Shown here one piece after another: positions 1,255 to 22,684 of a stretch of 46,083 nucleotides of DNA. A program made the translations under genes and the position numbers. Within the stretch, counting starts at the first letter, position 1; every line of letters starts with the position of its first letter. This DNA comes from Acidobacteriota bacterium (lineage in GTDB: Bacteria; Acidobacteriota; Vicinamibacteria; Vicinamibacterales; UBA823). The DNA lies in contig PCAK01000003.1 in assembly GCA_002730525.1 (NCBI GenBank), positions 1 through 46,083 of the forward strand, given 5' to 3'. The notes under the pieces are model-generated. The model was not told the origin of the DNA. It did not search any database and saw only the letters and a list, made by a program, of their open reading frames with translations.

Positions 1255-1278
1255 GGCGTGGGAGGCAGGAGGCTCCTG

Positions 1279-4200
1279 ATGGACCCCTTCCTCGATCAGC
1301 TCGCCGCGCTCTGCCGCGAGCAGCCGACGGCACCGAAGTGGGTGATCGTGCCGAGCCACGCGCTCGGGCACACCCTGGGCGATCGCCTGGCGCTCGGCGG
1401 CACCAGCTGGGTCAATCTCCGCTTCAAAACCCCATTCGACCTCGCACTCGAGGCGGCGGCGCCGACGCTGGTCGATCGCGGCGTCGATCCGATCGCCGAA
1501 GACGTCGGCCCGACGCTCGTCATGCGTCTGCTGCTCGACCTGCCGCCCGACACGCCCGCCTACTTCCGCGCGCTCGACAGCGAGATCCTCCAGGAGAAGA
1601 TGGCGGCCGCGCTCTGGTCGACCCTGAGCGAACTGCGGATGTCCGGTCTCGGGGCCGGTGCGCTCCTGGCCTGGGCTTTCGACAACCCGGACAAGCGCGC
1701 CGAGTTGGTCGCGCTGGTCGAGGCCTACGAGCGATACCTGGCCGACCGACAGCTTGCCGACACGGCGGCCGTCTTCACGGAGGCGCTGGCACTTGTCGAC
1801 GACTGTCCGATCGGAGGAGACGATCCGAGGCTGACGTTGCCCGACGTCCTCTGGCCGCTGCTCACTCGCCGCTTCCTCGACGCATTGCCGGGCCACGAGG
1901 TGGGCGAGGCGGCCGTACGTCGCCCGCCAGGTCTGACGGTGCCCGGCCGGCTCACCGGCCTTGCGCTCGAGCGGCCGGCGGGAACACGGACCGGCGGAAC
2001 GAGCGGTGACGGGCCCGATGCGGCCGGAGGCACCGACGCGGCGTCGCTCTGGTTCCTGATGACGCCGGAGGCGGCGCCACCGCCGAAGGACGACGGCACC
2101 CTGGCGATGTTCCGAGCGGGCGGGAAGGAAGCCGAGGTCGAAGAGGTGTTCCGTCGGATTGCGGCGTCGCGCGTTCGACTCGACGACGTCGAGATTGTCT
2201 GTGCCGCTTCCGACTACCCGTTCCTCATCTGGCAGAAAGCGGTCCGGCACGACTGGCCGGTGACCCTGAGCGCCGGCGTGCCGGTGACCGCCACGCGGCC
2301 CGCGCGCGCGATCGCGGCGCTGTTCGACTGGATCGAACGGGACTATCCGGCCAGCCGGCTCCGGCGGCTCTTCCAGTCGGGTGACGTGACGCTCCGGCGC
2401 GACGATGGGTTGACCTCGGGGCGGGCGGCCCGGCTGCTCACGCGATCGGAAGCGGCGTGGGGCCGTTCGACGTACGATGCCGCGCTCCGCGGCCTGGCGG
2501 CCGCCGACCGCGAACGGGCCGCCGATCCCGAGGTCGACGAGGAGGCCCAGGGCCGCGCCCGTGATCGTGCCGCGGAGGTCGATGGGCTCAGGATCTGGAT
2601 CGAGCACCTGCTGACGCTCATCCCCGAATCCGGCGAGGACGGCACCGTGGCGTTCGATGCGCTCCTCCGGGGCGTCGCGCGCTTCGCCGCCGACTATGCG
2701 AGACGGAGCGACCCGCTCGACAATCAGAGCGCCTCGGCGATCGGCGACGCGCTCGAGGAACTGAAGCTTCTCGGAGAGCTCCGGCGGCCGATGGGTGAGG
2801 CGCTCAGGCTGATCCGGAGCGCGCTCGAGGGCCTGACGGCCGGCGCGGATCGCGCGCGGCCGGGACATCTCCACGTCACCTCGATAGCACGCGCGGGCCA
2901 GGCAGGGCGTGCTCACACGTTCGTGGTCGGACTGGAAGAGGGCCGCGTCTTTCCGGCACCGGTCGAGGACGCCGTGCTGCTCGACGGCGAGCGCGAGGCG
3001 ATCGGCGGCGGTCTGCCGACCTCTGGCGACCACGCGACCGAGGCGGTCTTCGGCGTCGTCTCCCGGCTCGCGGCGATCGGCGCAGCGACCGACGACGACG
3101 GCACGACCACGCTCAGCTATTCCTGCCGCGACCTGCGCCAGTATCGCGACACGTTTCCCTCCTGGCTGCTGCTCCAGGCGTTTCGTCTCGGGCGGTCGGG
3201 TGAGACGACCTACGGCGATCTGATCGCCAAGCTGGCCGAGCCCGTCTCGGCGGTTCCGAGTCTGCCTGACGCCGCCGTCAGCGACAGTGGCTGGTGGCTG
3301 GCGAACCTGCACGTCGGCGGCCTGCCCGAGGCGCCGCTGCTCGAGGCCTTCCCCGGTCTGCGCCGCGGGTTGAAGGCCGAGCAGGCGCGCGAGTCAGACC
3401 TGTTCACGGTGTACGACGGCGCGGTGCCCGAGGCCGGCCGCCTGCTCGATCCGCGCGGATCGCGCCGCGTCATGTCGGCGACGCGGCTCGAGGGACTGGC
3501 GGAATGCCCGTTCAGGCACTTTCTGCAGTACGGCCTCGGCGTCGACGCGTTGGAGGAAGCCGAGCCCGAGCGCGACGTCTGGCTCAACCCGCTCACGCGC
3601 GGATCGGAGTTGCACGCGCTGTACGCCGACGTCATGCGGCGGGTGCGAGACGAAGGCCGCTCGGCCGACCCGTCGCACGATCTCGAATGGCTGACTGCCC
3701 GCGCCGACGACCGGCTGCGCCGCCTCACCGAGATCATGCCTCCGCCTTCGGCGCTCGTCTTCGACCGGGAGCGGCAGCAGCTCATCGAGGATCTGGCGCT
3801 CTTCTTGACGCTCGAGGCCGAGCAGCCCGATCGCCGGCCGGTCGCCCTGGAGGTCGGCTTCGGCCGCCCGGCGCGGGGTCTGCTAACCGACGAGGCCGAC
3901 GCGGTCGAGCCGCTGGCTCGAGCCGACGCGGTCCGGATCGGCGACGAGCGGTCGGGCTTCCTGCTGCGCGGCAAGATCGACCGGATCGATGAGGTCGACG
4001 GACGCTACGAGGTCGTCGACTACAAGACCGGCAGTTTCTTCGAGAAGAAGTACGGCGGGACCTTTCACGAGGGCCGACTGCTGCAGCACGCGCTCTACGG
4101 TCTGGCGGCGGTCGAGCTACTGCGACCGGTCGACCCCGACGCGCAGGTCAGCGCGGGGAGCTACTACTTCCCGAGCATCCGCGGCGGCGGACAGACGTCG

Positions 4201-4425
4201 TCGAAGCCGCACCCGCCGGCGGCCGCAACGCTGGGCGTGCTGGGCAATCTGTTCGACACGGTGGCCAACGGCGCGTTCGTGCACACCGCCGACGGAGAGA
4301 ACTGCCGGTTCTGCAAGCACTCGGACGCCTGCGGCCGCGACCGCTTCGCGCGCGCCGGGCGGAAGATCTGGAACACGGCGAACACGGCGCTCGAGCCGTA
4401 CCGGAAGCTATTGAGGACCGAATGA
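1279..4425 (+). CDS. addB: AddB-like subunit of a helicase-nuclease (PD-(D/E)XK, Fe-S)
   Basis: This is the partner subunit of an AddAB-type double-strand-break resection enzyme. The ATG at 1279 follows AGGAGG at 1267-1272 with 6-base spacing and gives 1048 residues. An in-frame GTG at 1258 is less likely. The C-terminal PD-(D/E)XK nuclease shows GKID (D901) and VDYKTG (D914, K916). C743 in CPFRHFL plus C1009, C1012 and C1018 (CxxCx5C) reproduce the four-cysteine 4Fe-4S arrangement known from AddB. The N-terminus (WVIVPSHALGHTLGDRL) aligns in style with the AddB helicase-like region but shows no Walker A GxxGxGKT, so this subunit probably does not hydrolyse ATP. The stop overlaps the start of the helicase subunit in ATGA (4422-4425), consistent with coupled, stoichiometric translation. 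The family call is firm; the symbol is by similarity. Confidence 0.88.
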   Translation: MDPFLDQLAALCREQPTAPKWVIVPSHALGHTLGDRLALGGTSWVNLRFKTPFDLALEAAAPTLVDRGVDPIAEDVGPTLVMRLLLDLPPDTPAYFRALDSEILQEKMAAALWSTLSELRMSGLGAGALLAWAFDNPDKRAELVALVEAYERYLADRQLADTAAVFTEALALVDDCPIGGDDPRLTLPDVLWPLLTRRFLDALPGHEVGEAAVRRPPGLTVPGRLTGLALERPAGTRTGGTSGDGPDAAGGTDAASLWFLMTPEAAPPPKDDGTLAMFRAGGKEAEVEEVFRRIAASRVRLDDVEIVCAASDYPFLIWQKAVRHDWPVTLSAGVPVTATRPARAIAALFDWIERDYPASRLRRLFQSGDVTLRRDDGLTSGRAARLLTRSEAAWGRSTYDAALRGLAAADRERAADPEVDEEAQGRARDRAAEVDGLRIWIEHLLTLIPESGEDGTVAFDALLRGVARFAADYARRSDPLDNQSASAIGDALEELKLLGELRRPMGEALRLIRSALEGLTAGADRARPGHLHVTSIARAGQAGRAHTFVVGLEEGRVFPAPVEDAVLLDGEREAIGGGLPTSGDHATEAVFGVVSRLAAIGAATDDDGTTTLSYSCRDLRQYRDTFPSWLLLQAFRLGRSGETTYGDLIAKLAEPVSAVPSLPDAAVSDSGWWLANLHVGGLPEAPLLEAFPGLRRGLKAEQARESDLFTVYDGAVPEAGRLLDPRGSRRVMSATRLEGLAECPFRHFLQYGLGVDALEEAEPERDVWLNPLTRGSELHALYADVMRRVRDEGRSADPSHDLEWLTARADDRLRRLTEIMPPPSALVFDRERQQLIEDLALFLTLEAEQPDRRPVALEVGFGRPARGLLTDEADAVEPLARADAVRIGDERSGFLLRGKIDRIDEVDGRYEVVDYKTGSFFEKKYGGTFHEGRLLQHALYGLAAVELLRPVDPDAQVSAGSYYFPSIRGGGQTSSKPHPPAAATLGVLGNLFDTVANGAFVHTADGENCRFCKHSDACGRDRFARAGRKIWNTANTALEPYRKLLRTE

Positions 4426-7400
4426 CGCTGCCCGATCAGGCCGCGCGCGAGTTGATCGCCAGCCGGCTCGATCTGAATTTGCTCGTCGAGGCCGGCGCCG
4501 GATCCGGCAAGACCGAGAACCTCGCGCAGCGGATGGCCGCCGGCATCGCCGATGGTGTCTACGAGATCGAGGGGATGGCCGCGGTCACGTTCACGCGGAA
4601 GGCGGCCGCCGAACTGCGCGGACGGTTCCAGCAGACGCTCGAGGTGCGGCTGGTCGACGAGGCCGTGCCCGAAAAGGCTGCGCGGATCCGGGCCGCCCTG
4701 TCGTCGCTCGACCGTCTGTTCGCCGGCACGATCCACGCCTTCTGTGCCCGACTCCTGCGCGAGCGCCCCGTCGAGGCCGGCATCGCGCCCGGGTTCACCG
4801 AACTCGACGAGATCGCCGACCTCGAACAGCAGCAGCAGTCGTGGCGCGAGTATCTCTCGCGCGAGCGCGCGCGTGGATCGGAGACGCTGCGGGCTCTCGA
4901 ATCGGCCGGCGTGCAGCCGAAGGATCTCGACGATGAGTTCCGGCGGGTCTGCCTGTTCGAAGAGGTCGAGTTCCCGTCGGGCGCCGCCGCGCCGCCGGAT
5001 GCGGAGGCCGCCTGGGACTCGCTTGACGCGATGTGGGCCGACCTCGGGCCGCGCGTGCCTGACGCGCTGCCCGAGGGGACGAAGTGCGCTGTCCAGAAGC
5101 GGGCCAGCGATTTCCGTTGGCGCCGACGTGCGGCGCGATCGCGGCGGTCGGCCGATCTCGTCACCCTCCTGACGATCTGGGATCACACGCCCAAGGTCAC
5201 GATGAAGTGGTGGGAGGGGTGCGCGCCGAACACGAAGCAGCTGCGCGAGCAGGTCGAGGAACTGCTCGGTCGATTCCGCGACGACGTCGTCACGCCGTAT
5301 CTCAGCGAATGGCGCCGCTACGTCTACCGCCTGGCCATCGAGTTGCTCGTGGACGCCCGCGACTACGCGCGCGACATGCGGTTCGGGCGCCTCGCCTTGA
5401 ACTACGGCGACTTGCTGCAGCGGGCCGCGAAGCTGCTGCGCGAGCAGCCAGACGTGCGACGCGCGCTGCAGGGGAAGTATCGGTGGCTCTTCATCGACGA
5501 GTTCCAGGATACCGATCCGATTCAGGCGGAAGTGGTGCTGCTGCTCGCGGCTGACGAAGCGGGGAAGCAGAGGCCGGCCCGGCGCATCGATTGGACCAAG
5601 GTGCGTCCCCGGGCGGGTGCGCTGTTCGTCGTCGGCGATCCGAAACAATCGATCTTTCGATTCCGCCGCGCCGACATCGAAATCTACGACCAGGTCCGCC
5701 GGATCATCGAGAAGTCCGGTGGCCAGACGGTGCCGCTCGAGGCGTCGTTCCGGGCGGTGCCCGCGCTGTGCAACTGGGCGAACGACGTCTTCGCCACTGT
5801 CTTTCCCGATGCCCCCACGCCCCAGCAGCCGGCGTTCCACCGGCTCGAGCCGGTACGCGACGATGCGCCGGCGACGGGTGTCCGAGTCCTGCTGCACGAG
5901 GCATCGGTCGACAGGAATGAACTCGCTGGCGAAGATGCGGCTCGGATCGCCGACTACATCCGGTTCGAAATTGCCGCCGGACGCCGCCGCCCCGAGGACT
6001 TCCTGATCCTGACGCGGATCAAGCGGAACCTTGCCGTCTACGCCGCCGCACTGGAGCGACTGGAGCTGCCGGTGGAAGTGAGTGGCGCCGGCGCGTTCGG
6101 CGACTCCGAGCACGTAAGGGAGCTGGCGGCCCTGCTGCGATCGCTCGCCGATCCCGACGATGGCGTTGTGCTCGTCGGCGTGCTGCGCGGACCGTTCTTC
6201 GGCATCAGCGACGAGGAACTGTTCCGGCACCGTCAGGCTGGCGGTGTCTTCAATCTCGCCCGTCCAGTGACAGGAGGACAGGTCGAAGCGCCGCCCGAGG
6301 CGATCCCGCCGCCTCCGCCCGTGCGCGCTCGCCGCGGACCCGACGCCGGCCAACCCAGCCTCTTCGAGGTGCCCGACGAGCCGAGTCGCCCGGCGGCCGA
6401 GTCCGCTCTCGTCGAACTGCAGGCGATGTACCGGTGGACGCGACAGCTCCCGGCGGCGGCGGCCACCGAACGGATCCTCGAGCGCACCGGCTTCCTCGCG
6501 CTCGCCGCGACCGGCACGCCGGGTGGTGCTGACGCCGGCGACTTGCTCCATGCGGTCGACCGGGTCCGTCAGATCGCCGAGGACGGCGGAACGCTCGCCG
6601 AGGCGGCCGCGGCGCTGACGCGAGAGATCGAAGGGAGCGACGTCGAGTCGTTGCCGCTCGAACCCGGCCGGAGCGACGTGGTCCGAGTGATGAACCTCCA
6701 CAAGGCCAAGGGACTCGAGGCGCCGGTTGTCTTCCTGGCCGACCCCGGCACCTCGGGCGGATCGCGTGGCGTCGATCTTCGCATCGAACGCGACGGCGAT
6801 CGCGCCGTCGGGTTCCTCCGGTTCGTCCGGCGGCGAAATTTCGCCGAGACGATCCTCGGCGAGCCCGACGGGTGGGCCGACCGCGCCGCGGTGGAACGGC
6901 AGTTCCTCGACTGCGAGGAGGACCGACTCCGCTACGTGGCGGCGACGCGCGCGATGGATCTGCTCGTCGTCTCGCGTTGGGAGAAGGCGACGGCGAAGAA
7001 ACCCGGGCCATGGACGGCGTTCGACACGGCGCTGGCTGGAGCCGAGGAGCTGGACGTCGGCGAGGCGACGGCGCCCACCGCGGTCGCGCGGAGTTCGGCG
7101 CCGGACGACCTCGCGTCTACCGCTGAGACCGCGGCCTCAGAACGGCAGGCGCGGCTCCGCCGCGCGGCGACACCTGCCTGGACGGTCGAGTCTGTCACCG
7201 GCGGCGAGCGGCACGAGATCACCGTCCGCGAGGACGACCCGGCGAGGCTGCTGCGCGGGCCGGCGACCGGCCTGGAGTGGGGCGACCTGGTGCACAAGTT
7301 ACTCGAGGACGCACTCCGCCGCGGCGAGGTCGACATCGCCCGACTGACGTGTCTGGCGAAGTGGTTGACGTTCGGTAAATCGGAACTGGCATCCGTCATC

Positions 7401-7757
7401 GACGAGGCAGTCGAGACGGTCGAAACGATCGCCGAGAGCGATCTCTGGGCGGAGGCGCTGGCGGCCGAAACGCGACACGTCGAGGTTCCGTTCGCCGTGG
7501 TCGAGGCTGGCTCGAGCGACAGCCCGCCGGTCGTTCGCCACGGCGTCATCGACCTCGTCTACCGCACCGCGGACGGCTGGGCGATCGTCGACCACAAGAC
7601 CGACCAGGTCGGCGCGGGCGGCCCCGAGGAACTCGCCGACCGCTATCGTGGGCAACTCGAACACTATGCCGAGGCCTGGCGGGCCGTGACGCGCGACGCC
7701 CGGGTGACGACCGGGCTCCATGTCGTGCGCGCCGGAGAAGTCAGTTGGACGTCCTGA
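4422..7757 (+). CDS. addA: AddA-like UvrD-family helicase-nuclease
   Basis: This is a 1111-residue SF1 helicase with a C-terminal nuclease, the motor subunit of an AddAB-type recombination complex that processes broken DNA ends for RecA loading. Motifs appear in order: Walker A GAGSGKT (K30), motif Ia VTFTRKAAAEL, Walker B FIDEFQDTDP (D359), motif III VGDPKQSIFRFR near 403, motif V MNLHKAKGLEAPVVFL from 757, and motif VI YVAATRAMDLL from 838. The C-terminal RecB-type nuclease shows GVIDLVY and VDHKTD (D1057, K1059). Its ATG lies within the stop of the upstream addB-like gene. A proline-rich linker (IPPPPPV) near residue 630 interrupts domain 2 and may be lineage-specific. It ends convergently with the Nudix gene, with 48 bp between them. 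Confidence 0.92.
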   Translation: MTLPDQAARELIASRLDLNLLVEAGAGSGKTENLAQRMAAGIADGVYEIEGMAAVTFTRKAAAELRGRFQQTLEVRLVDEAVPEKAARIRAALSSLDRLFAGTIHAFCARLLRERPVEAGIAPGFTELDEIADLEQQQQSWREYLSRERARGSETLRALESAGVQPKDLDDEFRRVCLFEEVEFPSGAAAPPDAEAAWDSLDAMWADLGPRVPDALPEGTKCAVQKRASDFRWRRRAARSRRSADLVTLLTIWDHTPKVTMKWWEGCAPNTKQLREQVEELLGRFRDDVVTPYLSEWRRYVYRLAIELLVDARDYARDMRFGRLALNYGDLLQRAAKLLREQPDVRRALQGKYRWLFIDEFQDTDPIQAEVVLLLAADEAGKQRPARRIDWTKVRPRAGALFVVGDPKQSIFRFRRADIEIYDQVRRIIEKSGGQTVPLEASFRAVPALCNWANDVFATVFPDAPTPQQPAFHRLEPVRDDAPATGVRVLLHEASVDRNELAGEDAARIADYIRFEIAAGRRRPEDFLILTRIKRNLAVYAAALERLELPVEVSGAGAFGDSEHVRELAALLRSLADPDDGVVLVGVLRGPFFGISDEELFRHRQAGGVFNLARPVTGGQVEAPPEAIPPPPPVRARRGPDAGQPSLFEVPDEPSRPAAESALVELQAMYRWTRQLPAAAATERILERTGFLALAATGTPGGADAGDLLHAVDRVRQIAEDGGTLAEAAAALTREIEGSDVESLPLEPGRSDVVRVMNLHKAKGLEAPVVFLADPGTSGGSRGVDLRIERDGDRAVGFLRFVRRRNFAETILGEPDGWADRAAVERQFLDCEEDRLRYVAATRAMDLLVVSRWEKATAKKPGPWTAFDTALAGAEELDVGEATAPTAVARSSAPDDLASTAETAASERQARLRRAATPAWTVESVTGGERHEITVREDDPARLLRGPATGLEWGDLVHKLLEDALRRGEVDIARLTCLAKWLTFGKSELASVIDEAVETVETIAESDLWAEALAAETRHVEVPFAVVEAGSSDSPPVVRHGVIDLVYRTADGWAIVDHKTDQVGAGGPEELADRYRGQLEHYAEAWRAVTRDARVTTGLHVVRAGEVSWTS

Positions 7758-10313: not shown

Positions 10314-10492
10314 GCGCGCACCTGGTGGGGTGAGGTGCGCAACGGCGCGGCGGCACCGACGACGCTGAAGATCGCGGTGTTCGCGCCGATCCAGATCGCC
10401 AGCGTCAGCAGCGCCACCGCTGTGAACGTCGGCGCACGACCGAGCGTTCGTCCGGCGTACCGCAGGTCCTGAGTCAGGTCGGCCAGAAGCAT
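10295..10492 (-). pseudogene. ADOP permease N-terminal remnant (truncated)
   Basis: This 65-codon frame starts [20 protein letters not shown] and continues through the diagnostic first membrane segment ([19 protein letters not shown]) of acidobacterial duplicated orphan permeases (ADOP, MacB/FtsX-like). It then diverges and stops within the PadR operator. Intact ADOPs have two MacB_PCD-FtsX halves and about 800 residues, so more than 90 percent is missing. Its ATG overlaps the stop of the M14 peptidase gene in TGATG (10494-10490). It may still be translated as a small membrane peptide, but is more likely a relic. Confidence 0.75.
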
Positions 10493-13125
10493 CAGCTCTC
10501 GCGCTTCATACCTCCAGAAAGCAGGGCATTGAAGAGGATGCGGAACGAGCCGAATGGCTGCCCGCGCCACTGGGGCCTGAAGCCGAGCAGGACGACACGT
10601 CCGTCCCCGTGCCGCACCTCGAGCGCCGCGGCACGGTCGTTCAGCCGGTTCTCACCGAGCAGGTAGCCCGAGAGCAACGGTGATCCGGTCGAGGCGTAGC
10701 GCGCCAGCGCCTGACCCTCGAAGCCGTCCAGGGTCTCGAACGCCGGGCTCCGGCCGAAGAACACGGCGCTCCGTGGCGCCACGCCGGCCATGATCGGATG
10801 CGCCGTGTCGGCCTCGATCTCGAGCAGTGACCCGCCGGCGAAGAACTCGCCGCGTGACAGGCCCGACAGCACGTTTCTCACCGGGAGGCCCAGCGCTTCG
10901 ATGGCGAAGCCACTCGCCCCGTTCAAGCAGACGAGCGTCCCGCCGTCGCGGACGAACCGATCCAGTGCGCGTACACCCTCGAGGCCGATGCCGCCAGCGT
11001 AGCGCGGCGGCACGACACCCTCCGCGAATCCGTCGACGATCGAGCCGCGGCCGGGATCGGTCAGGACAATGACGTCGTATCGCGTGCCGAGATCGCCAGC
11101 GCGCATTTCGATGTCACGGATGTTCGCGAAGTCGAACTCGAAGCGTTCGAACACCCAGCGCGTCCAGCCCTCGTCCATGCTCGGGTTCCACGGACGGTGC
11201 AGACCGACCGCTGGGCGCGTCAGCTCGGTGCCTCCCGTCGACTCGACGGTCGTCGCGACGCGCAGCTCGCCTATCGACGCCCGCGCGTTGGGCCCGAGCC
11301 CGGAAATGACGAACGCGGCGCCGGTATCGTCCTGCCGCAGCTGGACCCGGCCGCCTGACTGCCACGCCCGATTCACCGCGCGGAACGCGTTGAGCTGGGC
11401 TGCGTCGACGGCGAACGTGCCGTCGTCGGGAACGCTGCTCGCGCGCGGCACGATGCCAGCGGCCACTGGGTTCGTGTCGAAGCCGACGCCCGGAACGCTG
11501 TCGAACGGCGCGGCGTCCTTGCCGTGCTCGCCGTCGCGCCAATCGACGGCCGCGCCGTGAGCGAGCGCCATGGCCGATCGCACGGCATCGGTCAGCGGTG
11601 AGCGCGCCTCGATCACGCGGGCGCCCATTTGCTGCGAGAGCGTCCAGCCCGCGGCATCGTACGGCTGCTCGAGCGGGCCATCGGGAAACTCGCGGAGGTC
11701 CGGATAGGTCTGGATCTCGAGCATCTGGCGTACCAGTTCACCGAACTCCTGATTCATCGGGACGACCCAGGTGCCGGCGTCGTAGACCGTCCCTTCGACG
11801 GTGACCTCGGATTGCAGTTCGTGGACGCGGATGCCATTGAACGCGAGTCGGCGCAGTAATTCCACCGGCGCCATCGGATCGCGCTGATCCCGGGGCACGA
11901 AGTACGCGAACGGCGCTTCGGCCTCGTACTTGGCGATTGTGTCGCGCCCGGTCTGGTAGCGGTTGTAGAGCAGGTCGTCCTTGTATTTCGCGGCGAAATC
12001 CAACACCGAGAGCGACGCCGTCTCCATGTATTCGACCGCGTCGCGGAGCCGCCACCAGCCGCCGCGCCACGGGCTGGGGTAGAGCGACTCCGATCGCAGA
12101 CCACGCTGTCGCGCCGGGAAGTCCTGAACCGTGTAGAAGTGCGGTGTCGCGTAGCGGTACAGGGCGGTTTCCGTCCAGAACGACGCGCGGTTCTGCAGCA
12201 TCGGCAGGTAGTCGACGTAGCCGGGATACCAGGCGTCGTAGCCGGTGCCCATGTGGGTGGCGCCGATCTGGCCGCGTTCCTCTAGCCCTTGCGCCATGAG
12301 CATGCCGATCGTGTTGACCGTGCGCGACATCAGCGGATGTACACGTCGGCCGATCGGCTCGGCGAACGGCGGTAGCCAGATGCGGGTGGGGAAGGGCGCG
12401 GTCTGATGCTGGGTGTAGACGATCTGCGGCTCCCACTCTTGCATCGTCCTGGCGATGACGCGCGACTCGATCATGTTGAGCATGTAGGCGTCGCGGTTGT
12501 TGTCGTGGCCGACATACTTCTGGTACAGCGCGGTCAGCGGCGCCACTTCGTAGGACGTGCCGACGTTCGACCGGTACCACTCGGCCACCATGGTCTGGCC
12601 GTCGGGATTCAACGTCGGCCAGAGCATGAAGATCACGTTGTCGAGAATCGCCTGAATCTCGCGATCCGCGCTGCCCGTGAGCAGGTCGTAGGCCAGTTGC
12701 AGCGTGTGCTGCGCCGTGGCCACCTCGGTGGAGTGCACGCCGCCGTCGATATGGACAATTGCCTTACCCTCGCGCGCGAGCGCCCGGGCCTCGTCGTCGG
12801 TCAACCCCTGCGGGTGCGCGAGCCGGACGGCGATCTCGCGATAGCGCTCGAGGTTCGCTAGGTTGTCCGCGGACGAGATGAACGCCACGTGGACCGGGTG
12901 GCCGAACGACGTCTCGCCGACATGGACCAGCGTCAGTTCATCGGTGGCCGCGTCGAGCCGTTCGAAGTAGGCGATCGCATCGTCGTACGACGCCAGGTGA
13001 AAGTCGGCTCCCACGGTGTATCCCAGGACCGACTCCGGCGTCGGCACCTGGGCGGTTGCGGGTACCGCCCGGATCAGCAGTACCGCCGCACAACAGCCCC
13101 AGATCGATAGCGCTCGTCTCGTCAC
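10492..13125 (-). CDS. Secreted M14-family zinc carboxypeptidase
   Basis: This is an exported metallopeptidase that would trim peptides in the periplasm or outside the cell. The GTG start at 13125 follows AGGAG with 6-base spacing, and gives 877 residues opening with a signal peptide that ends VPATAQ. The zinc site is H131 and E134 in [12 protein letters not shown], with H240 in [15 protein letters not shown] as third ligand. TLNPDGQT and GHDNNRDAY fit substrate-binding residues of the M14 fold. Residues about 620-860 form a second domain ([31 protein letters not shown]) resembling class I glutamine-amidotransferase-like folds that accompany this M14 subgroup; no catalytic Cys-His pair is evident there. 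Only 3 bp separate it from the M28 gene upstream, so both belong to one operon. Confidence 0.9.
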
Positions 13126-13128
13126 AAC

Positions 13129-14679
13129 TCACTCCTGTGGGCGCGGTCGGGGGAACGTCCCCTCGCGCATCGCGGCGTGGTACGCGAAGCTCGCCATCAC
13201 CACCGAGTTGATCATCAGGTCGTGCGGCAGAAGCTTGTCGTAGACGTCCATGTTGAAGTGGTGGGTCCTGGCTCGGTAGTCGATCCGGTCCTGGACGAAC
13301 TGGAACCCAGGCAACCCGACCTGGTTGAACGCCAGGTGATCGGTGCCCCTGTTGCTGAACTGGGAGATAGTCTCGACCTTCAGGTCCTGGAACGGGGTCA
13401 TCCACGCCTTGAGGATCGGCGTCGCTTGGACGTTGCCCTGGGTGTGCACGCCGCGGAACTGGCCGGTGCCGTTGTCCATGTTGAAGTAGACGGAGAACTT
13501 GTCGTGGTCTGGCGTGTACACGCCGTCTTCCCCGAAGCGGTGTCGGATGTAGCCTCGTGACCCGACGAGGCCCATCTCCTCCTGGCTCCACAGCGCCACG
13601 CGGATCGTGCGTCGAGGCCGAGCACCGATGACCTTCAGAATGCGCATCGCCTCGAGCACGACCGACACGCCACTCGCGTTGTCGGTGGCGCCGGTGCCGG
13701 TGTGCCATGAATCGAGGTGCGCCCCGATCATGACGACCTCATCGGCGAGATCGGTGCCGGGGATCTCTGCGATCACGTTGTAGCCCGCCGGATCCGATTC
13801 ATCGAGCCCGACGCGAACCTCGACATCCATCGTCACCGGCAGGCCGCGCTCAAGAATCCGGTAGATCCGGTTGTAGTGCTCGGTCGCGACGGCGAGCGTG
13901 GGCAGGGCGTTCTCGATCCCCGCGCGGGTCCGGTCGCTCCGGGTCGACGCATGGCCCGTCGCATAGACGGTGCCGTCGCTCCCGATACTTGCCGCCAGCA
14001 CGACGGCGACGCCTTCCGACTTGTAGAACGCCTCCACCTCCGCGGCGGAAATCCCCTCGCGCCGGAAGGTCGACTGTTCGAGTTGCCCACGGGCGTGGCG
14101 GCGGATGAGCAGGTCGACGCCCTCGGTCTCGAAGACGCCAAGCGACTCCTCGTCGTGCCGGAACGCGTCCTGCACGAAGCGCGGGCCCATCGGCATCGGC
14201 GGCGTGGACAGGACAACGGCGCCGTCGAGTCGGCCTCGATACTGGTCGAGGTCCTCCGGGGTCTGGATCGTCGCTATGACGGCGTTCGTTACGACCGGTC
14301 CTCCCGTCCCGGGTGTCAGGGCGAGCGGGTAGGCGATCACCATCTGATAGTCAGGCGCGGTCATGTGCACCGAGACCCGCTGGATCTCCCACCCGACGGT
14401 CTCGTCACCCCAGGCCTCTCGCTCGACCCCGGACAGCCCGACCTCCGTCATCCGGGCCATCGCCCACTCCTGAGCCTGGCGCATGTTCGGTGACCCGGTG
14501 AACCGCGGGCCGATCACGTCGGCCAGGTAGCCGGCACTCTCCATCACCTGGGAGTTGTCGAATCCCTCGGTCCGGATGTCGTCGACGACATCCCAGTAGA
14601 CGGGTTCTTGTGCTGCCGTGAATGACGGCACGACGAGTATCGCGGCCGCGAAGGCCAGATTCCGAGTCGTTCTACTCAT
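13129..14679 (-). CDS. Secreted M28-family zinc aminopeptidase
   Basis: This is an exported dinuclear-zinc peptidase of 516 residues. The signal peptide ends SFTAAQ. A protease-associated-like insert (about 125-270) precedes the catalytic core, where HLDSW (H321, D323), TDNASG (D333) and SQEEMG (E367 catalytic, E368 ligand) give the M28 metal site. YFNMDNG and DHLAFNQVGLPGFQF supply the remaining Asp and His ligands. Such enzymes release N-terminal residues or cleave dipeptides, and fit the M14 carboxypeptidase directly downstream. The alanine racemase gene lies 17 bp upstream on the same strand, consistent with co-transcription. Substrate preference cannot be read from sequence. Confidence 0.92.
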   Translation of the reverse strand: MSRTTRNLAFAAAILVVPSFTAAQEPVYWDVVDDIRTEGFDNSQVMESAGYLADVIGPRFTGSPNMRQAQEWAMARMTEVGLSGVEREAWGDETVGWEIQRVSVHMTAPDYQMVIAYPLALTPGTGGPVVTNAVIATIQTPEDLDQYRGRLDGAVVLSTPPMPMGPRFVQDAFRHDEESLGVFETEGVDLLIRRHARGQLEQSTFRREGISAAEVEAFYKSEGVAVVLAASIGSDGTVYATGHASTRSDRTRAGIENALPTLAVATEHYNRIYRILERGLPVTMDVEVRVGLDESDPAGYNVIAEIPGTDLADEVVMIGAHLDSWHTGTGATDNASGVSVVLEAMRILKVIGARPRRTIRVALWSQEEMGLVGSRGYIRHRFGEDGVYTPDHDKFSVYFNMDNGTGQFRGVHTQGNVQATPILKAWMTPFQDLKVETISQFSNRGTDHLAFNQVGLPGFQFVQDRIDYRARTHHFNMDVYDKLLPHDLMINSVVMASFAYHAAMREGTFPRPRPQE

Positions 14680-14696: not shown

Positions 14697-15947
14697 CTAG
14701 ACCATCCGCCGGTCCATCAGCGGACCGAGGTGCATCGTCAGGTCGTAGACCGACCCATTGAACTCCGCCGCGAGATCCTCGGCGCGCGATCCGTCCTCCC
14801 AGTCGAACACCGTCACCTCGTCACCGATCTGCACGCGACCCTCGGCGCCGATCTCGACCATCGTGTGGCTCGCCGAGATGGCGGCAATGATCGGATAGCG
14901 TCTGCCGCCGATCGTCAGGTGGCCGCCCTGGGCCGCGGCGCGCGGCAGCCCGTCGACGTGGCCGATTGGCAAGGTTGCGATCCAGACATCGTTCTCCGCT
15001 TGGTAGGCGCGGCCGTAGCCGGCGGTTTCCCCGCGGCGGAGCTGCTTGACGTAGGCGACGCGCGCTCGCATCGCTGCCGCCGGCCGCAGATCGAGGACGC
15101 CCAGCTCCCGGAATGGTGGCTCGGAATAGACGCCGAAGATCGCCATGCCCACGCGCACCATGTCCAGGAAGGCGTCCGGATGCTCGAACAGCGCGAAACT
15201 GGACGCGGCGTGGAGCCGACCGACGTCGATTTCTTCGCTGCGCAGCGTTGCCCCCACTTCCTGGAGCCGTTCGATCTGCATCGGGTCGAGTTCGACGTCT
15301 TCGGACAGCGTCGTCTGGAGGCCTTCGATCCTCACCCCGGATCGGCCGGCCAGATCGCGCACCAGCGGCGCTGCATCTCGCGCCGGGACGCCGACCCGGC
15401 CCATGCCGGTGTCGAGGCAGACATGAATCGAAATCGTCTTCTGCAACTTCGCCGCCACGCGCTCCAGCGCGTCGCCGATCGGTGTGTAGACCATCGGCAT
15501 GATGTCGCGCGCACCCATCTCCTCGAGGTTCACCTCGTCGAACGGCCCCATGAGCAACACCGGCTTGCGAATGCCGGCATCGCGCAGCGCCACCGCCTCG
15601 TTCAGCTTCACGACCGCCATGCCCTCGACGGCATCGAGCGGATCCAGGATCCTGCCGGCGTTCGTGATGCCGAGGCCGTAGGCGTTGTTCTTGATGACCG
15701 CCATGATCGGCCGGCTATCGACACGTCGCGAGATCACCTCGATGTTGTGGCGAAGATTGTCGGCGTGCACTTCCACCCACGGATCGAACGACGAGTGCAC
15801 GGCGCTGTCCGAACGCGCCGACGTCTGCGCGGCCGCGTCGAGCGGCCGCAGCGCGGGCACGGCCGCCGTCGCGGCCATCGCCGTCAAGAAGGCCCGGCGC
15901 CCAGGCGCCTTCCGTGCGGTCGGTTGCGAAAGTCTCTTCGGGGCCAT
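14697..15947 (-). CDS. Tat-exported alanine / amino-acid racemase
   Basis: This is a fold-type III PLP racemase that would interconvert L- and D-alanine or other amino acids. The ATG at 15947 follows GAGG with 8-base spacing and gives 416 residues. The first 41 residues carry a twin-arginine signal (GRRAFLTAMAATAAVPALRP, then DAAAQ), so the enzyme should fold with its cofactor inside and be exported. K86 in AVIKNNAYGLG is the Schiff-base lysine and Y311 in AGYGRAY the opposite catalytic base. CLDTGMGRVG and HAASSFAL match family blocks, while the usual THF after GL is TTL here. Periplasmic racemases of broad specificity are known, which suggests wider substrates than alanine (inference). It is embedded in a secreted-peptidase operon, 5 bp after the S9 gene. 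Confidence 0.88.
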   Translation of the reverse strand: MAPKRLSQPTARKAPGRRAFLTAMAATAAVPALRPLDAAAQTSARSDSAVHSSFDPWVEVHADNLRHNIEVISRRVDSRPIMAVIKNNAYGLGITNAGRILDPLDAVEGMAVVKLNEAVALRDAGIRKPVLLMGPFDEVNLEEMGARDIMPMVYTPIGDALERVAAKLQKTISIHVCLDTGMGRVGVPARDAAPLVRDLAGRSGVRIEGLQTTLSEDVELDPMQIERLQEVGATLRSEEIDVGRLHAASSFALFEHPDAFLDMVRVGMAIFGVYSEPPFRELGVLDLRPAAAMRARVAYVKQLRRGETAGYGRAYQAENDVWIATLPIGHVDGLPRAAAQGGHLTIGGRRYPIIAAISASHTMVEIGAEGRVQIGDEVTVFDWEDGSRAEDLAAEFNGSVYDLTMHLGPLMDRRMV

Positions 15948-15952
15948 GCGTC

Positions 15953-18900
15953 TCACCTCGGTGTGGGTTGGTCGTTCAATCGCCCGTTTGCATCGATCTT
16001 GACGATCAGCCAACGACCCGCGTGGGCCGCCGGATCGACCTCGATCACGCGGGCCGTCTTGCGGCCCTGATCCGTCATCGTCACGATCTCGACATCGACG
16101 CGTCCGGCCTCAGCCAGGCCGACATGCACCGGCAGGGCACTCTGCGAGTTGTACCCCGAGCCCGTATCGACGATGCCCATCCCGAGCAGCCGATCGGTGC
16201 CGGCCGCGAACACGCGGACCTCCGAGCCCGCACGTGTGTAGCGGCCGTCGCCGTCGAGCACCATCACCTGAAGCGAGCGGCTCGCCTGCGGCTCGTTTGT
16301 TCGGTTGAAGGCGACGTAGTGCATCCCGTCGGGCGTGCCGCCGGTCAGCGCGAGATCGAGGGCGCCGTCCAGGTCGAAGTCGGCCCACTGTGCGCCATGG
16401 TCGGAGGCAAGATCTCCGAGCACGTCGGGCGTGACATCGATGAACCGCTCGCCGTCGTTGCGCAGCAGATAGTCGCGATACTGCTTACCGCCCGTTACGG
16501 TGCCGTTCACGTAGAGGTCGAGTCGGCCGTCGTTGTCGTAGTCGCCCCAGGTACCGGTGTCGTAGAAGCTGTCGATGGCCAGTCCCATCTGCGGCGCCAC
16601 GTTCTCGAAACGACCGTCGTCGAGGTTGCGCAGCAGCCCGTTCGGACCGTAGTTCGCCGTGAAGATGTCCAGCGCGCCGTCGTTGTCGTAGTCCGCGAGC
16701 GTCGGCCGCACACTGCCGTTCGATCGGAAGCCGAGCGGTCGACCGCCTGAATCCGCGCCCGACTCGATCGCGACGTCGACGAAGCGGGTGCCGTCGTTGC
16801 GGAACAGACCGTTGGCGTCGCCGTCCATGTTGGCGACGTACAGGTCGAGGTCGCCGTCCTTGTCGAAGTCGAACCAGACGGCTCCGACGGTGCGGCGGCT
16901 GTCACCGACGCCCAGCGCCGAGGCGACATCGGTGAAACGGCCGTCGTCGTTTCGGAAGAGCACGTTCGGTTTATCCCGGAGCCCGAGGAACAGATCGACG
17001 TCGCCGTCGTTGTCGTAGTCGACCCAGCTCACCTGCCTGAAGCTCCCAGAGATCGCGACGCCGGCCGGGTCGGTCACGTCGGTGAACCGCGCACCGTCGC
17101 CCTCGTTGCGGTACAGCCGATTCGAGCTGCCTTGCCGGGAGACGAAGCCGACGAACAGATCGAGGTGGCCGTCGCCGTCGTAGTCGCCCCACGCGGCGGC
17201 GCGGGTCACATCGTTGTCGGCGAGGCCGATCTCGGCGGCCACATCGGTCAGTGTGCCCGCGTCGTTCCGGTACATCCGGTTGGGCTGCTGGCTGAACCCG
17301 ACGAACAGATCGAGGTCGCCGTCGTTGTCGTAGTCCGCGATCGCGTTGGTGAATGCGTTGCCGTCGTCGAGCATGGCCTGGTCGGTCAGTTCGAACGCCG
17401 GCCGCTCGCCGGCCGCGTCCAACCGCTCGAAGTGCTCGGCGATCCACGTCACCCAGCGCCGCCGCACGTCGCGCCGGTGCACCGGGTCGGGCGGGAAGTG
17501 GCCGCTCACCGGATAGGCGATGAACGATGTCTCGACGCCGTTGTCCTCCAACGCATGATAGAGCTTGTAGGACTGGCTCACGGTCACGCGCTCGTCACCC
17601 GTAGCGTGGAGAATCAGCGTTGGCGTGCTGATCTGGTGGGCGTAGGCCATCGGCGACTGCCGCCAGTAGTTCAGCGCGTTGTCGTTGAGCCACGGCGACC
17701 CGTCGAGGCCGCCGCCGGCCCAGACATTCATGTCGGCCATGCTGTACCAGTCGAACCAGTCGGTCACCGAAGCGCCCGCCACCGCGGCCGCCCATCCGTC
17801 GTAGTGCGCGGTGAGCCAGGCGGTCATGTAGCCGCCGTACGACCAGCCGGAGACGGCGATGCGATCGTCGTCGACGATGCCGAGCACCTTGACCGCGTCG
17901 ACACCCGACATCACGTCACGCCCCGGCCCGTCGCCCGCGTCGTTGATCACGGCGCTCTGGAACGCGTCCCCCTGCGTGCTGCTGCCGCGGTAGTTCGGGC
18001 TGAAGACCAGCCATCCCTGCGCGGCCAGGATCTGATTGAACGTGCTGAACGACTCGATCGACGCGCCCATCGGGCCGCCGTGGATGCTGAGGACGAGTGG
18101 ATAGCGCACACCCTCCTCGAAATCAGGCGGGTAGATGAGGATGCCGTTCTGGTCGAACCCATCCGGGCCATCCCAGGTGATCGTCTCCACGTCGCCGAGC
18201 CGCATCGATGCTAACCGGGCATTGAAGTCAGTCAATCGCCGTGGCTCCCACGTGCCGGCGGCCATGACGTACAACTCGGAAGGCCGGTCAGGCTCCCGGC
18301 CGATGAAGGCCACGGTACCGTCAGGCGCCACGGCCGGATTGGACGCCGGGTGAATCGGTCCGAGATCGATGCGCTCGGACGCGCCGTCGAGCGCAACCTG
18401 CCAGAAGGCGCGCGACGTCAGGTCGGTCCCGGAGACCAGCAGCGTCTGGTCGTTGAGCCAGGCCAGTCCGCCGAGGCTCCGATCGATCGCTTCCGTCACG
18501 TCCATGGCCGCACCGCCGCCGATCGGCTTCAAGAAGATGCCCGAAGGGTGGAAGCCCGCCTCTCGGCCTCGCGAGCGGCCGAACGCCAGAAACTTACCGT
18601 CGGGCGAGAACGCTCTCAGCGACACGCTCGCATCGGTCACGAGCGGTCGTTGCTGACCCGATTCCAGATCGAGCACCCGGATCGCCGATCGGATGCTCTC
18701 GCCGGAGTGCGGACGCGGCAGGACGCGGAGGGCGACGGTCGAACCATCTGGCGACACAGCCAGGTCGGTGAAGCTCTCTACGCCCTCGGTGAGCCGGGCG
18801 GTCTTTCGATCGTTAATCGATACCTTCCAGACGTGTGCCGGGGCCGGCGCGGCCTGTGCGAGGTAGCTGTTGTAGCCAACCTCGAACGACCGGTTGTGGC

Positions 18901-19411
18901 GCTCCTCGCCCTCGCGTTCCTCGGACGCGTCCGGGACGGTATAGAGAAGATGCGACCCGTCCGGTGTCCATCGAAAGGTGCGGACGCCCTGCTTTCCCTC
19001 GGTGACCTGTTTGGCCTCACCGCCGCTCATCGACAGGACGAAGAGCTGCGGCCCGCCTTCGCCCTCACTGGAATCCACGAACGCCAGCCGATCGCCCGAC
19101 GGCGACCAGCGCGGCTGGCCGACGGCCGGCCGCTGTGGCGTCAGGTCCCGCTGGGCGCCAGTCGCGACATCGACGAGGACCAGCGTGCGATCGAACCGGT
19201 TGTCGTCGTAGTTGGGTCGGCTCGTGACGATCACGACCGCCTGTCCGTCGGGCGAGATAGCCGGAGCGGACAGGCCGACGTCGAGGCGCAGGTCGTCGAC
19301 CGTCAGCGTCCGCGTCTGCGCCGAGAGGCCTGGCACGAAGAGCGCGACGATTGCGACGACCGTCGCGAGGAGAACCGACTCGGCAATCCGATGGAGTCGG
19401 GAGAAACTCAT
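15953..19411 (-). CDS. S9 prolyl oligopeptidase fused to FG-GAP/VCBS and UnbV-like domains
   Basis: This is an exported serine peptidase of unusual architecture, 1152 residues in one uninterrupted frame. After a signal peptide (to about 31) comes a TolB/S9-type propeller (about 40-400), then the alpha/beta-hydrolase domain with GWSYGGYM (S524), GDERVT (D606) and SGHFPPD (H638) as catalytic triad. From about residue 685 seven calcium-type DxDxDGxxD motifs follow (for example DYDNDGDLDLF and DFDKDGDLDLY), typical of FG-GAP/VCBS propellers. The tail (SGYNSQSALPVHVGL) resembles the ASPIC/UnbV domain. S9 enzymes normally end after the catalytic domain, so the extension adds about 470 residues and perhaps substrate or surface binding. 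The start ATG follows GGGAG with 8-base spacing. It leads into the racemase gene with a 5-bp gap. Confidence 0.88.
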   Translation of the reverse strand: MSFSRLHRIAESVLLATVVAIVALFVPGLSAQTRTLTVDDLRLDVGLSAPAISPDGQAVVIVTSRPNYDDNRFDRTLVLVDVATGAQRDLTPQRPAVGQPRWSPSGDRLAFVDSSEGEGGPQLFVLSMSGGEAKQVTEGKQGVRTFRWTPDGSHLLYTVPDASEEREGEERHNRSFEVGYNSYLAQAAPAPAHVWKVSINDRKTARLTEGVESFTDLAVSPDGSTVALRVLPRPHSGESIRSAIRVLDLESGQQRPLVTDASVSLRAFSPDGKFLAFGRSRGREAGFHPSGIFLKPIGGGAAMDVTEAIDRSLGGLAWLNDQTLLVSGTDLTSRAFWQVALDGASERIDLGPIHPASNPAVAPDGTVAFIGREPDRPSELYVMAAGTWEPRRLTDFNARLASMRLGDVETITWDGPDGFDQNGILIYPPDFEEGVRYPLVLSIHGGPMGASIESFSTFNQILAAQGWLVFSPNYRGSSTQGDAFQSAVINDAGDGPGRDVMSGVDAVKVLGIVDDDRIAVSGWSYGGYMTAWLTAHYDGWAAAVAGASVTDWFDWYSMADMNVWAGGGLDGSPWLNDNALNYWRQSPMAYAHQISTPTLILHATGDERVTVSQSYKLYHALEDNGVETSFIAYPVSGHFPPDPVHRRDVRRRWVTWIAEHFERLDAAGERPAFELTDQAMLDDGNAFTNAIADYDNDGDLDLFVGFSQQPNRMYRNDAGTLTDVAAEIGLADNDVTRAAAWGDYDGDGHLDLFVGFVSRQGSSNRLYRNEGDGARFTDVTDPAGVAISGSFRQVSWVDYDNDGDVDLFLGLRDKPNVLFRNDDGRFTDVASALGVGDSRRTVGAVWFDFDKDGDLDLYVANMDGDANGLFRNDGTRFVDVAIESGADSGGRPLGFRSNGSVRPTLADYDNDGALDIFTANYGPNGLLRNLDDGRFENVAPQMGLAIDSFYDTGTWGDYDNDGRLDLYVNGTVTGGKQYRDYLLRNDGERFIDVTPDVLGDLASDHGAQWADFDLDGALDLALTGGTPDGMHYVAFNRTNEPQASRSLQVMVLDGDGRYTRAGSEVRVFAAGTDRLLGMGIVDTGSGYNSQSALPVHVGLAEAGRVDVEIVTMTDQGRKTARVIEVDPAAHAGRWLIVKIDANGRLNDQPTPR

Positions 19412-19477: not shown

Positions 19478-22400
19478 CTACGGCACGACAATTCCCGCTA
19501 GCCCCCGATCGGCCAGCGTCCGGTTGAAATCGGCCAGATCGTCGTCGCGGACGTCGGTCATTTGCAGCTCGTAGGTGTCGAGCAGCTCCTTGTAGTTCTC
19601 GAAGACCTCGCGTTGCTGCGTCGTCGGTGGGAAGTCGGTCTGGCCGATGTAGCCGGCCAGGCTGCTCAACTTTGCCAGGAGCTGGCGCGGCCAGCGGATC
19701 GAGTCCTGGCGCGCCGAGCCGCCCGAGAGGCGCTGGTCGCTCAGCCGCATCTCGATCGCCAGCAGCCGATCGTCCAGGGCCCGTGCCGCCTCGCGGATCC
19801 CGTCGGCGTCGGGGTGATCCCCGAGCCGGCCGCCGACGTCGCCGAGTTGCTTCCGGATCGACTCGATCTCGTTGATGAGCGCCACCGCGTCGTTCAGAAT
19901 GTCGCGCAGCTCGAGCAGCAGCGCCGTCTGTTCGCCGATGTCGGCCTCGCTGCCCGCCGAGTTGGGGTCCTTCAGCACCGTGAGCGTCCGCGTCAGCTCG
20001 GTTTCGCCCACCGTCAGCCGGATCGTGTAGTCGCCTGGCGGCGCCAGCACGCCGACGCGGCCGCCGTCGCCGATCGGCCTGATGCCGGTCTCCGGATCGG
20101 GCCGGACGTGCGAGTGCTGGTAGGCCGGCGTCTGGAGCCGCGGCTCGTCGGTCTGCGTGTGGCGCAGGTCCCAGTGCACCCGGTTGATGCCGGCCGTGGT
20201 CGGCAGGTTCGATAGCGACCGGATCTCCGAGCCCGACGCGTCGAGGACGGCGAGGCTCAACCCCACGTCGTCTTCAAGATCCGCCGGCAGGTAGTAGTGG
20301 AGCGACGCGCCGTAGGTCGGGTTCGTGCCGGCGCCCGAGTCTTCGGGCTGGCTCGTGACGCTCTCCCGGTTGCGGAACCTGTACGCCGGCCGCGGGTCGA
20401 AGAGGTGCGCGTCGGCCGCGAGCACGTCGGCGTCGAGTTGCTGCAGCGGCGTGATGTCGTCGAGGATCCAGAAGCCGCGACCGTAGGTGCCGACGACCAG
20501 GTCGTTGAAGTGCGGCTGGATCGTCAGCCAGTGCGCCGGCGCGTGTGGCAGGTTGGTCTGCAGCGGGAGCCACTGTCCGCCGTCGTCGAACGACACGTAG
20601 ACGGCGTTCTCGGTGCCGGCGTAGAGCAGCCCCGCGCGCGTCGGATCTTCCCGGACGACGCGAACCGAGCTCAAGATGCTTGCCGGAATCGATTGGCTGA
20701 TCTTCGTCCAGCTGTCGCCGTAGTCGGTCGTCTTGTAGATGAACGGGTCGAAATCGTTCACCTGATGCAGGTCGACGCTGATGTAGGTCGTGCCCGCGTC
20801 GTGGGCCGATGGCTCGATGTTGCTGATCGTGCCCATCGGCGGCAGGTCGGGGATGGCATCGGTGACGTTGTCCCAGGTGGCGCCACCATCGCGCGTCAGG
20901 TGCACGAGGCCGTCGTTCGAGCCGGCCCAGACCACGCCGGCCTCGAGCGGTGATTCGGCGATAGCGAAGAGCACGCCGGCGTAGGTCGGGCTCACGTCCT
21001 CGGGCGTCAGGCCGCCGGTCTTCTGCTGCCGGCTCCGGTCGTTCCGCGTGAGATCCGGGCTGATCATCTCCCAGCTCTGACCGCCGTTCGTCGTCACGTG
21101 CACGTACTGGCTGCCGACATACACGCGGTTGTGGTCATGGGGCGAGATCGCGATCGGGAACGTCCACTGGAATCGGTACGGCAGTTCGGCCGCTGCCCAT
21201 CCCTCGGGATTGTCCGGCCAGACGCTGACGTTGCGGGCATGGCCGGTTTCGAGGTCGTAGCGCTCGAGGATGCTGTCGTAGCAGCCCGACCAGACGATGT
21301 TGTTCTCCACCGGATCAGGAATGGCAAAGCCCGACTCGCAGCCGCCGACCGAGTGCATCAGGCCGATCGGGATGCCGCCCGATTGCAGGCTGTTGCTCGG
21401 TACCCGGGCGGACGGGCCGTCTTGGCGGTTACCGTAGACGTAGTAGGGGATCCGGTTGTCGGTGTAGGCGTGGTACATCTGGGCGATCGGCAGCCGCGGC
21501 CGCCACCACTGCGCGCCGCGCGTCGTCGAGATCGACACGCCGCCGTCGTGGCCGACGATCATCCTGTCGGGCAGCCGCGGGTCGATCCACATGTCGTGGT
21601 TGTCACCGCCCGCCGTGCCGCGTTCGATCGTGAGGCCGCCATCGAGCGAGACCGAGTGGCGGGTCGACATGAAGTGGATCTCGTCACGATCGTCCGGTGC
21701 CACTGCCGCGCGTGTGTAGTAGAGCGGCCGCTGCGCCAGCGTGTGGTCGGCGTTGACCATCCGCCAGGATTGTCCGCCGTCGTCCGAGCGCCAGAGCACG
21801 CCGGCGTGATCGTCGAGTTCGGCGAAGTCGCCGTTCGAGTTCGTCTCGATCAGCGCGTAGATCCGGTTCGAGTCGTCGGGCGTCATCGCCAGGCCGATCT
21901 TGCCGATCGGCTTGTCGGGCAGCCCGTTACCGGTCAGCTCCTCCCAGGTCTCGCCGCCGTCACGAGACGTCCAGAGGCCGCTGCCGGTCCCCCCGCTCTC
22001 GCGGCCCCAGGTCCAGATCTCCAGCTGCCACATGCCGGCGAAGAGGACCTCCGGGTTGTTCGGATCCATGACGATGTCAGCCGCGCCGGTCCGTTCGTCG
22101 ACGAAGAGCACCCGCTCCCAGGTGTCGCCGCCGTCGGTCGAGCGAAAGACGCCGCGCTCGGGCTGCGGCCCGTAGGCGTGGCCGAGCGCCGCCGCGAAGA
22201 CGATGTCGGGGTCGTTCGGGTGGATGACGATCCGGCCGATCCGGCCGGTGGCGTCGAGGCCCATCCGGCGCCAGGACTGGCCGGCGTCGGTCGACTTGTA
22301 GATGCCGTTGCCGTGGGAGATGTTGCTGCGGATGAACGTCTCGCCCGTGCCGGCCCAGACGACGTTGGGGTTGACCGGGTCGATCGCCAGCGCGCCGATC

Positions 22401-22684
22401 GACGCGACCGGCTGATCGTCGAAGACCGGCTCCCAGTGGATGCCGCCGTCGACCGACTTGAACACGCCCCCCGATGCGGCACCGAGGTAGTAGATGTTCG
22501 GGTCGCCGGGCACGCCGACGACCGCGCTCACGCGGTTGCCGACCGGCCCGATGTGGCGGTACTCCAGGGCGCTGAAGATCTCCGGGTCGAGTGCGTCGAG
22601 TTGCTGGGCGGACGAGTCCGGCACGGCCGGCAGCAAGAGAGCGGTGAGGGCGAGTAGTGGAATGGTCCGGAGAGTGCGCGGCAT
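19478..22684 (-). CDS. Secreted sortilin/VPS10-like BNR beta-propeller protein
   Basis: This 1068-residue exported protein has a signal peptide ending PDSSAQ and repeated Asp-box motifs of the SxDGGxxW type (SVDGGIHW, STDAGQSW, STDGGDTW, SRDGGETW, SDDGGQSW, TRDGGATW). It forms two large propellers as in the sortilin/VPS10 and BNR families. A jellyroll-like segment and a helical, charged stretch near the C-terminus (about 915-1010) follow. Acidobacteriota often encode such proteins near secreted peptidases; annotation pipelines call them glycosyl hydrolases, but no catalytic acid pair is recognisable, so a binding role is equally possible. The ATG follows GGAGG with 6-base spacing. It is 66 bp upstream of the S9 peptidase gene on the same strand and may share its transcript. 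Confidence 0.85.
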   Translation of the reverse strand: MPRTLRTIPLLALTALLLPAVPDSSAQQLDALDPEIFSALEYRHIGPVGNRVSAVVGVPGDPNIYYLGAASGGVFKSVDGGIHWEPVFDDQPVASIGALAIDPVNPNVVWAGTGETFIRSNISHGNGIYKSTDAGQSWRRMGLDATGRIGRIVIHPNDPDIVFAAALGHAYGPQPERGVFRSTDGGDTWERVLFVDERTGAADIVMDPNNPEVLFAGMWQLEIWTWGRESGGTGSGLWTSRDGGETWEELTGNGLPDKPIGKIGLAMTPDDSNRIYALIETNSNGDFAELDDHAGVLWRSDDGGQSWRMVNADHTLAQRPLYYTRAAVAPDDRDEIHFMSTRHSVSLDGGLTIERGTAGGDNHDMWIDPRLPDRMIVGHDGGVSISTTRGAQWWRPRLPIAQMYHAYTDNRIPYYVYGNRQDGPSARVPSNSLQSGGIPIGLMHSVGGCESGFAIPDPVENNIVWSGCYDSILERYDLETGHARNVSVWPDNPEGWAAAELPYRFQWTFPIAISPHDHNRVYVGSQYVHVTTNGGQSWEMISPDLTRNDRSRQQKTGGLTPEDVSPTYAGVLFAIAESPLEAGVVWAGSNDGLVHLTRDGGATWDNVTDAIPDLPPMGTISNIEPSAHDAGTTYISVDLHQVNDFDPFIYKTTDYGDSWTKISQSIPASILSSVRVVREDPTRAGLLYAGTENAVYVSFDDGGQWLPLQTNLPHAPAHWLTIQPHFNDLVVGTYGRGFWILDDITPLQQLDADVLAADAHLFDPRPAYRFRNRESVTSQPEDSGAGTNPTYGASLHYYLPADLEDDVGLSLAVLDASGSEIRSLSNLPTTAGINRVHWDLRHTQTDEPRLQTPAYQHSHVRPDPETGIRPIGDGGRVGVLAPPGDYTIRLTVGETELTRTLTVLKDPNSAGSEADIGEQTALLLELRDILNDAVALINEIESIRKQLGDVGGRLGDHPDADGIREAARALDDRLLAIEMRLSDQRLSGGSARQDSIRWPRQLLAKLSSLAGYIGQTDFPPTTQQREVFENYKELLDTYELQMTDVRDDDLADFNRTLADRGLAGIVVP

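Follow-up and report, generated by a model that had tools for sequence, protein, structure and literature searches.

The window analysed here, a stretch of 46,083 nucleotides from an Acidobacteriota bacterium, contains at 15953..19411 a gene that encodes an S9 peptidase and a CRTAC1-type protein in one chain. The gene lies on the minus strand, as do all the features of the cluster described below. It starts with ATG at 19411, ends with TGA at 15953 and runs without a stop for 1152 amino acids. The initial annotation, which did not give the strand, had reported one uninterrupted frame of 1152 codons, and this is confirmed. A predicted signal peptide (aa 1-31, MSFSRLHRIAESVLLATVVAIVALFVPGLSA; 19319..19411), helical at residues 4-29 in the structural model, is followed by the S9 N-terminal beta-propeller (aa ~34-400; 18212..19312), which was recognised by PD40 (E = 8e-16) and DPPIV_N matches. 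The S9 alpha/beta-hydrolase catalytic domain (aa ~425-662; 17426..18139) comes next, with Peptidase_S9 (PF00326) matching aa 454-662 (E = 1.7e-44). The complete S9 triad claimed before was found with each residue in its normal S9 context: the nucleophile S524 in GWSYGG (17840..17842), D606 in ATGDERV (17594..17596) and H638 in SGHFPP (17498..17500). The NCBIfam models for Dpp5 and lasso isopeptidase scored far under their own cutoffs on the fusion protein.

The junction (aa 663-672; 17396..17425), placed from the module starts and the model, bridges the last S9 helix and the conserved CRTAC1 start, a phenylalanine and then a Q-containing stretch. The CRTAC1-type seven-bladed FG-GAP propeller (aa ~673-1045; 16277..17395) is covered by six FG-GAP_3 stretches (E = 2e-41 in the whole protein, 2e-46 in the module alone). 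All seven DxDxDGxxD motifs that had been reported after the peptidase were located, starting at aa 693 (17309..17335), 743, 798, 848, 907, 957 and 1011. For the UnbV/ASPIC-like C-terminal domain (aa ~1046-1146; 15974..16276) the match in this copy is weak: UnbV_ASPIC (PF07593) scores 21.6 bits on the whole protein and 22.8 bits on the module, below the cutoff of 23.4. However, UnbV_ASPIC matches 33 of 35 aligned homologous modules with E <= 0.01 (best 1.2e-9), several relatives exceed the cutoff, and the structural match to CRTAC1 extends to aa 1146. An EGF domain was not found in the Pfam search of the fusion protein. GC3 is 0.77-0.94 along the entire frame, join included, as expected if the frame is coding throughout.

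The same frame and join were found in a congener (UBA2161), on a separately assembled 144-kb contig, with 92% identity over aa 9-1152. Draft assemblies are involved, and a merging of two genes by assembly or sequencing could be suspected from that; but another species' independently assembled contig has the same frame, join and neighbours, which makes an artefact hardly conceivable. For practical purposes, a chimeric assembly is ruled out. A stop and a separate start between the two parts, which according to the initial annotation would speak against a fusion, are absent in the congener; separate genes occur only in more distant relatives. Comparison of the two species gives dN/dS values of 0.124 (S9 propeller), 0.073 (catalytic domain) and 0.125 (CRTAC1 propeller), with purifying selection acting equally on the two main folds. 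The value is 0.32 at the junction (aa 663-690) and 0.59 in the fast-evolving tail, over 92 codons with small dS.

Structure prediction, which the initial annotation had proposed as a check, fits each half to a solved fold. AlphaFold gave pLDDT 91 and pTM 0.75 for the whole chain, and pLDDT 93 and pTM 0.94 for the module alone; because of the whole-chain pTM, the relative placement of the halves is uncertain. Residues 34-662 have as their nearest solved structure an S9 carboxypeptidase of Geobacillus stearothermophilus (8WT1; Z 40.7), and the closest structures are S9 carboxypeptidases and acylaminoacyl peptidases. Residues 667-1146 match murine CRTAC1 (9ETN) with Z 43.5 and rmsd 2.3 over 452 residues at 24% identity. 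In a Foldseek search with the module alone, 9ETN was found at E 6.8e-29 and TM 0.82, and the second-best structure at 1.3e-9. The loop motif is integrin-like, but integrins match the module much more weakly than CRTAC1 (E about 1e-8, TM about 0.45). A sequence search of the PDB found no relative of the module; the likeness to CRTAC1 emerged by fold comparison only. By its predicted structure, the C-terminal half (aa ~671-1146) corresponds to an entire CRTAC1-type protein. The earlier view that the parts normally occur as separate proteins holds for the S9 peptidase and the module. It does not hold for the FG-GAP propeller and the UnbV tail, which are one known unit, that of the CRTAC1 family, so that two proteins are fused here and not three.

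The fusion gene lies in a tight same-strand cluster of five apparently exported proteins, with leaders recognised by eye, of which three are peptidases. Upstream, 66 bp before the fusion gene, is a gene for a sortilin/BNR-type propeller with a leader (19478..22684; PF15902, 3e-27). Downstream, with its likely start 5 bp past the stop of the fusion gene, is a gene for an alanine-racemase-type PLP enzyme (14697..15947; PF01168/PF00842); it has a Tat-like leader (GRRAFL) and is probably exported. It is followed by genes for an M28 peptidase (13129..14679; PF04389, 6e-33) and an M14 zinc carboxypeptidase (10492..13125; PF00246, 4e-16), each with a leader in its sequence. As judged from the encoded proteins, the cluster looks like a peptide-degrading one, perhaps able to handle D-amino acids. 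The order of the M14, M28, racemase and BNR genes is conserved in the congener, except that one gene is inserted. The inserted gene (L038:2034-4928, 964 aa) encodes an Amidohydro_3 and Beta-lactamase fusion between the BNR and S9-CRTAC1 genes and is missing at the same place in the window. The racemase-type enzyme reads ASHTMVE at a position where a CMDQ-type stretch would be expected. Elsewhere in the window, 31325-34051 encodes a Ser/Thr protein kinase that carries a PD40 propeller at its C-terminus, and neighbouring genes for a PDDEXK nuclease and a UvrD-type helicase-nuclease form an AddB/AddA-like pair at 1258-7757.

The S9-CRTAC1 fusion was seen in one genus only, in two species. The S9 half has unfused relatives with 66-72% identity elsewhere in the Acidobacteriota and in a single Gemmatimonadota MAG, and all 24 other members of the S9 group in the tree have open frames without room for the module. 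The module closest to that of the fusion belongs to a leader-bearing solo protein (contig C637 of genome G245). This genome also carries one of the nearest S9 genes, on a different contig, and the nearest S9 gene and the solo module are likewise separate genes on different contigs in G819 and G821. A solo module is present in three of the four genomes with a close S9 gene, versus 14 of 394 in the phylum sample (Fisher p 2.5e-4); the association is suggestive, since G245 is counted on both sides and the four genomes are non-random and possibly related. In the tree, the S9-fused module clusters with solo proteins (100/99 support), apart from both groups joined to S45 enzymes. The module start comes right after the leader in solo proteins and after a short linker in the fusion. 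Because this start is conserved in solo and fused forms, the stop codon and the leader were lost cleanly. No solo CRTAC1 copy was found in the source genome of the window.

Eight genomes of six families (G130, G052, G135, G045, G345, G380, G700 and G501) encode S45 penicillin-amidase-type proteins that have the same module as their C-terminal part; one of these genomes, G380, is a closed single contig. The tree label of G501 as a solo module was rejected: its acylase and module contigs share matching ends and represent an S45 fusion split in two. With G501 relabelled, fewer changes are needed for that group, and the S9 branch is unaffected. The S45 acylase family is mostly unfused. Among 48 close-match genomes of the phylum sample, the module is known in three (G501, G380 and G345), and the open frames of the others are mostly near 800 aa, with one of 1061 aa (G014) whose contents were unread. 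In six genomes, a gene for a second S45 type immediately precedes a solo module; where both gene ends were readable, the spacing ranges from an overlap of 4 bp to a gap of about 80 bp. Genes of this type stand directly upstream of the modules at L093, L094, L112, L113, L114, L116 and L084. At L093:1563-4211 (G052 contig C263) the gene is in frame with the module, on one draft contig whose relatives have two overlapping or close genes, so a frame error is possible. Because the tree separates the S9-fused module from both S45 groups, the module has been joined to amide-bond hydrolases at least twice independently.

Of the 58 module rows, 39 are solo and six more are solo behind an S45 gene; most have their own leader, and the neighbours of most solo modules are varied. 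Among these rows, no confirmed fusion to a domain type other than S9 or S45 was seen. Long frames around the solo modules L015, L019, L029, L090, L091, L092 and L095 are not fusions. Further S9 fusions suspected from open frames of 1058-1469 aa in G014, G034, G043, G063 and G056 were also rejected: the extra length, as far as it was readable (L124-L126 were seen in part), is arginine-rich non-coding read-through of the kind common in GC-rich DNA. The exception is G034, which has a phosphatase-like tail. At L123 (minus strand, 2631-6827), an S9 frame has a C-terminal extension like a tyrosine/dual-specificity phosphatase (HCGGGNRA). At L097:3315-6386, a solo module ends 7 bp before a same-strand gene that resembles a beta-lactamase-family serine hydrolase.

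The explanation that we consider best, and to which we give about an even chance, is that the gene encodes an S9C exopeptidase that is secreted and carries an ion-stabilised CRTAC1 domain as an accessory for docking or for handling substrates. The protein would be one exported enzyme of two parts. Because the triad and the S9 fold are intact, the N-terminal part is predicted to be a complete S9C-type serine peptidase of the acylaminoacyl-peptidase/carboxypeptidase group, which would cut short peptides. The C-terminal part would be a complete bacterial CRTAC1 that lost its signal peptide on joining the peptidase's C-terminus; its rigid propeller and small beta domain are probably stabilised by bound metal ions. 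It may hold the peptidase at a surface, a polymer or a partner protein, or handle its substrates, while the other exported peptidases of the cluster degrade peptides. We infer this docking or substrate-handling role because the module is repeatedly paired with amide hydrolases. Surface tethering and calcium stabilisation, both suggested in the initial annotation, are plausible. In proteins of known structure, calcium is bound by calcium-blade loops of the DxDxDG type (PMC3123361), and in bacterial integrin-type propellers every blade carries one site (PMC3192720). The fast tail and the varied neighbours of most solo modules count against an accessory role.

It is also conceivable that a chance event in one genus joined two exported proteins, that each half works alone and that the link serves no shared function. 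The restriction of the fusion to one genus and the weak constraint on the tail are in line with this, and the S9 and module genes need not cooperate, because they are on different contigs in the nearest relatives. Nevertheless, purifying selection is equal on both main folds, S45 amide hydrolases acquired the module separately and have retained it across families, and the source genome has no remaining solo copy. We therefore regard a neutral join as somewhat unlikely. If the CRTAC1 half were instead a regulator or inhibitor, it could keep the active site or the entry tunnel closed as long as no ions or ligand are bound. To judge from the titles of the structures, a Deinococcus S9 relative was solved in active and inactive forms, suggesting that access to the site is switchable, and calcium blades of the Dx[DN]xDG type have been described in regulatory contexts (PMC3123361). 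S45 enzymes, which have another fold and another active site, bear the module at the same end, however, and this favours a generic accessory and makes a gate improbable. Cleavage after export into a peptidase and a CRTAC1 protein, with the gene fusion merely securing equal amounts, would fit a dN/dS that is higher at the junction than in either fold and the leader-bearing peptidases encoded next door. But the linker is short, the helix in the model runs nearly straight into the module and no cleavage motif was seen; we consider such cleavage highly improbable.

If the accessory reading of the fusion is extended, Acidobacteriota CRTAC1-type proteins may be general accessory partners of extracytoplasmic amide-bond hydrolases, acting solo in trans or fused in cis and recruited separately by S9 peptidases and S45 acylases. 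This generalisation is tentative and, as it stands, rather doubtful. If it is true, the fusions would provide a first mechanistic role for the CRTAC1 proteins of bacteria and perhaps for those of animals too. The S9 and CRTAC1 families are both known, and CRTAC1-type proteins are present in several bacterial phyla, but the joint architecture is without a match in the literature searched. Within that search, whose scope left out most subscription papers, no fusion of FG-GAP/UnbV with penicillin acylase, prolyl oligopeptidase or peptidase in Acidobacteria was found, nor was a function for any bacterial CRTAC1 member. The fusion of the same module to S45 penicillin-acylase-type enzymes is also new. 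The repeated association of the module with amide hydrolases is of more interest than the single protein, and the S45 fusions bear most on the function of the module, as a first testable hint of what a bacterial CRTAC1 does. With the fusion to a well-understood enzyme and the parallel S45 fusions, an 'FG-GAP protein of unknown function' becomes testable with a construct and its truncation, and the naturally joined enzyme-propeller pairs are targets for structure solution.

Murine CRTAC1 (9ETN) has the propeller and then the C-terminal domain, an order common to the C-terminal half of the fusion, but lacks the attached peptidase. The study of 9ETN reportedly found that potassium ions stabilise a compact propeller-TTR core. 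On the peptidase side, 8WT1 and the S9 enzyme of Deinococcus radiodurans (5YZM and others) have the same two-domain architecture as aa 34-662 of the fusion (Z 40.7 and 38-39, respectively) and the same catalytic serine in GxSYGG; they are 27-29% identical to it and were matched over their whole chains, which are without the C-terminal module. Solo bacterial CRTAC1-type proteins, such as that of G245, are 63-68% identical to the fusion module and have a leader but no enzyme half. The Cu/Zn-SOD of Deinococcus that is joined to a beta-propeller lactonase (PMC12362111) is also a natural enzyme-propeller fusion, but its enzyme and its propeller family are both unrelated to those described here. The S45-CRTAC1 fusions of Acidobacteriota share with the S9 fusion the module, its C-terminal position and its start motif, whereas their enzyme belongs to an unrelated Ntn-hydrolase family and their module to another branch of the tree.
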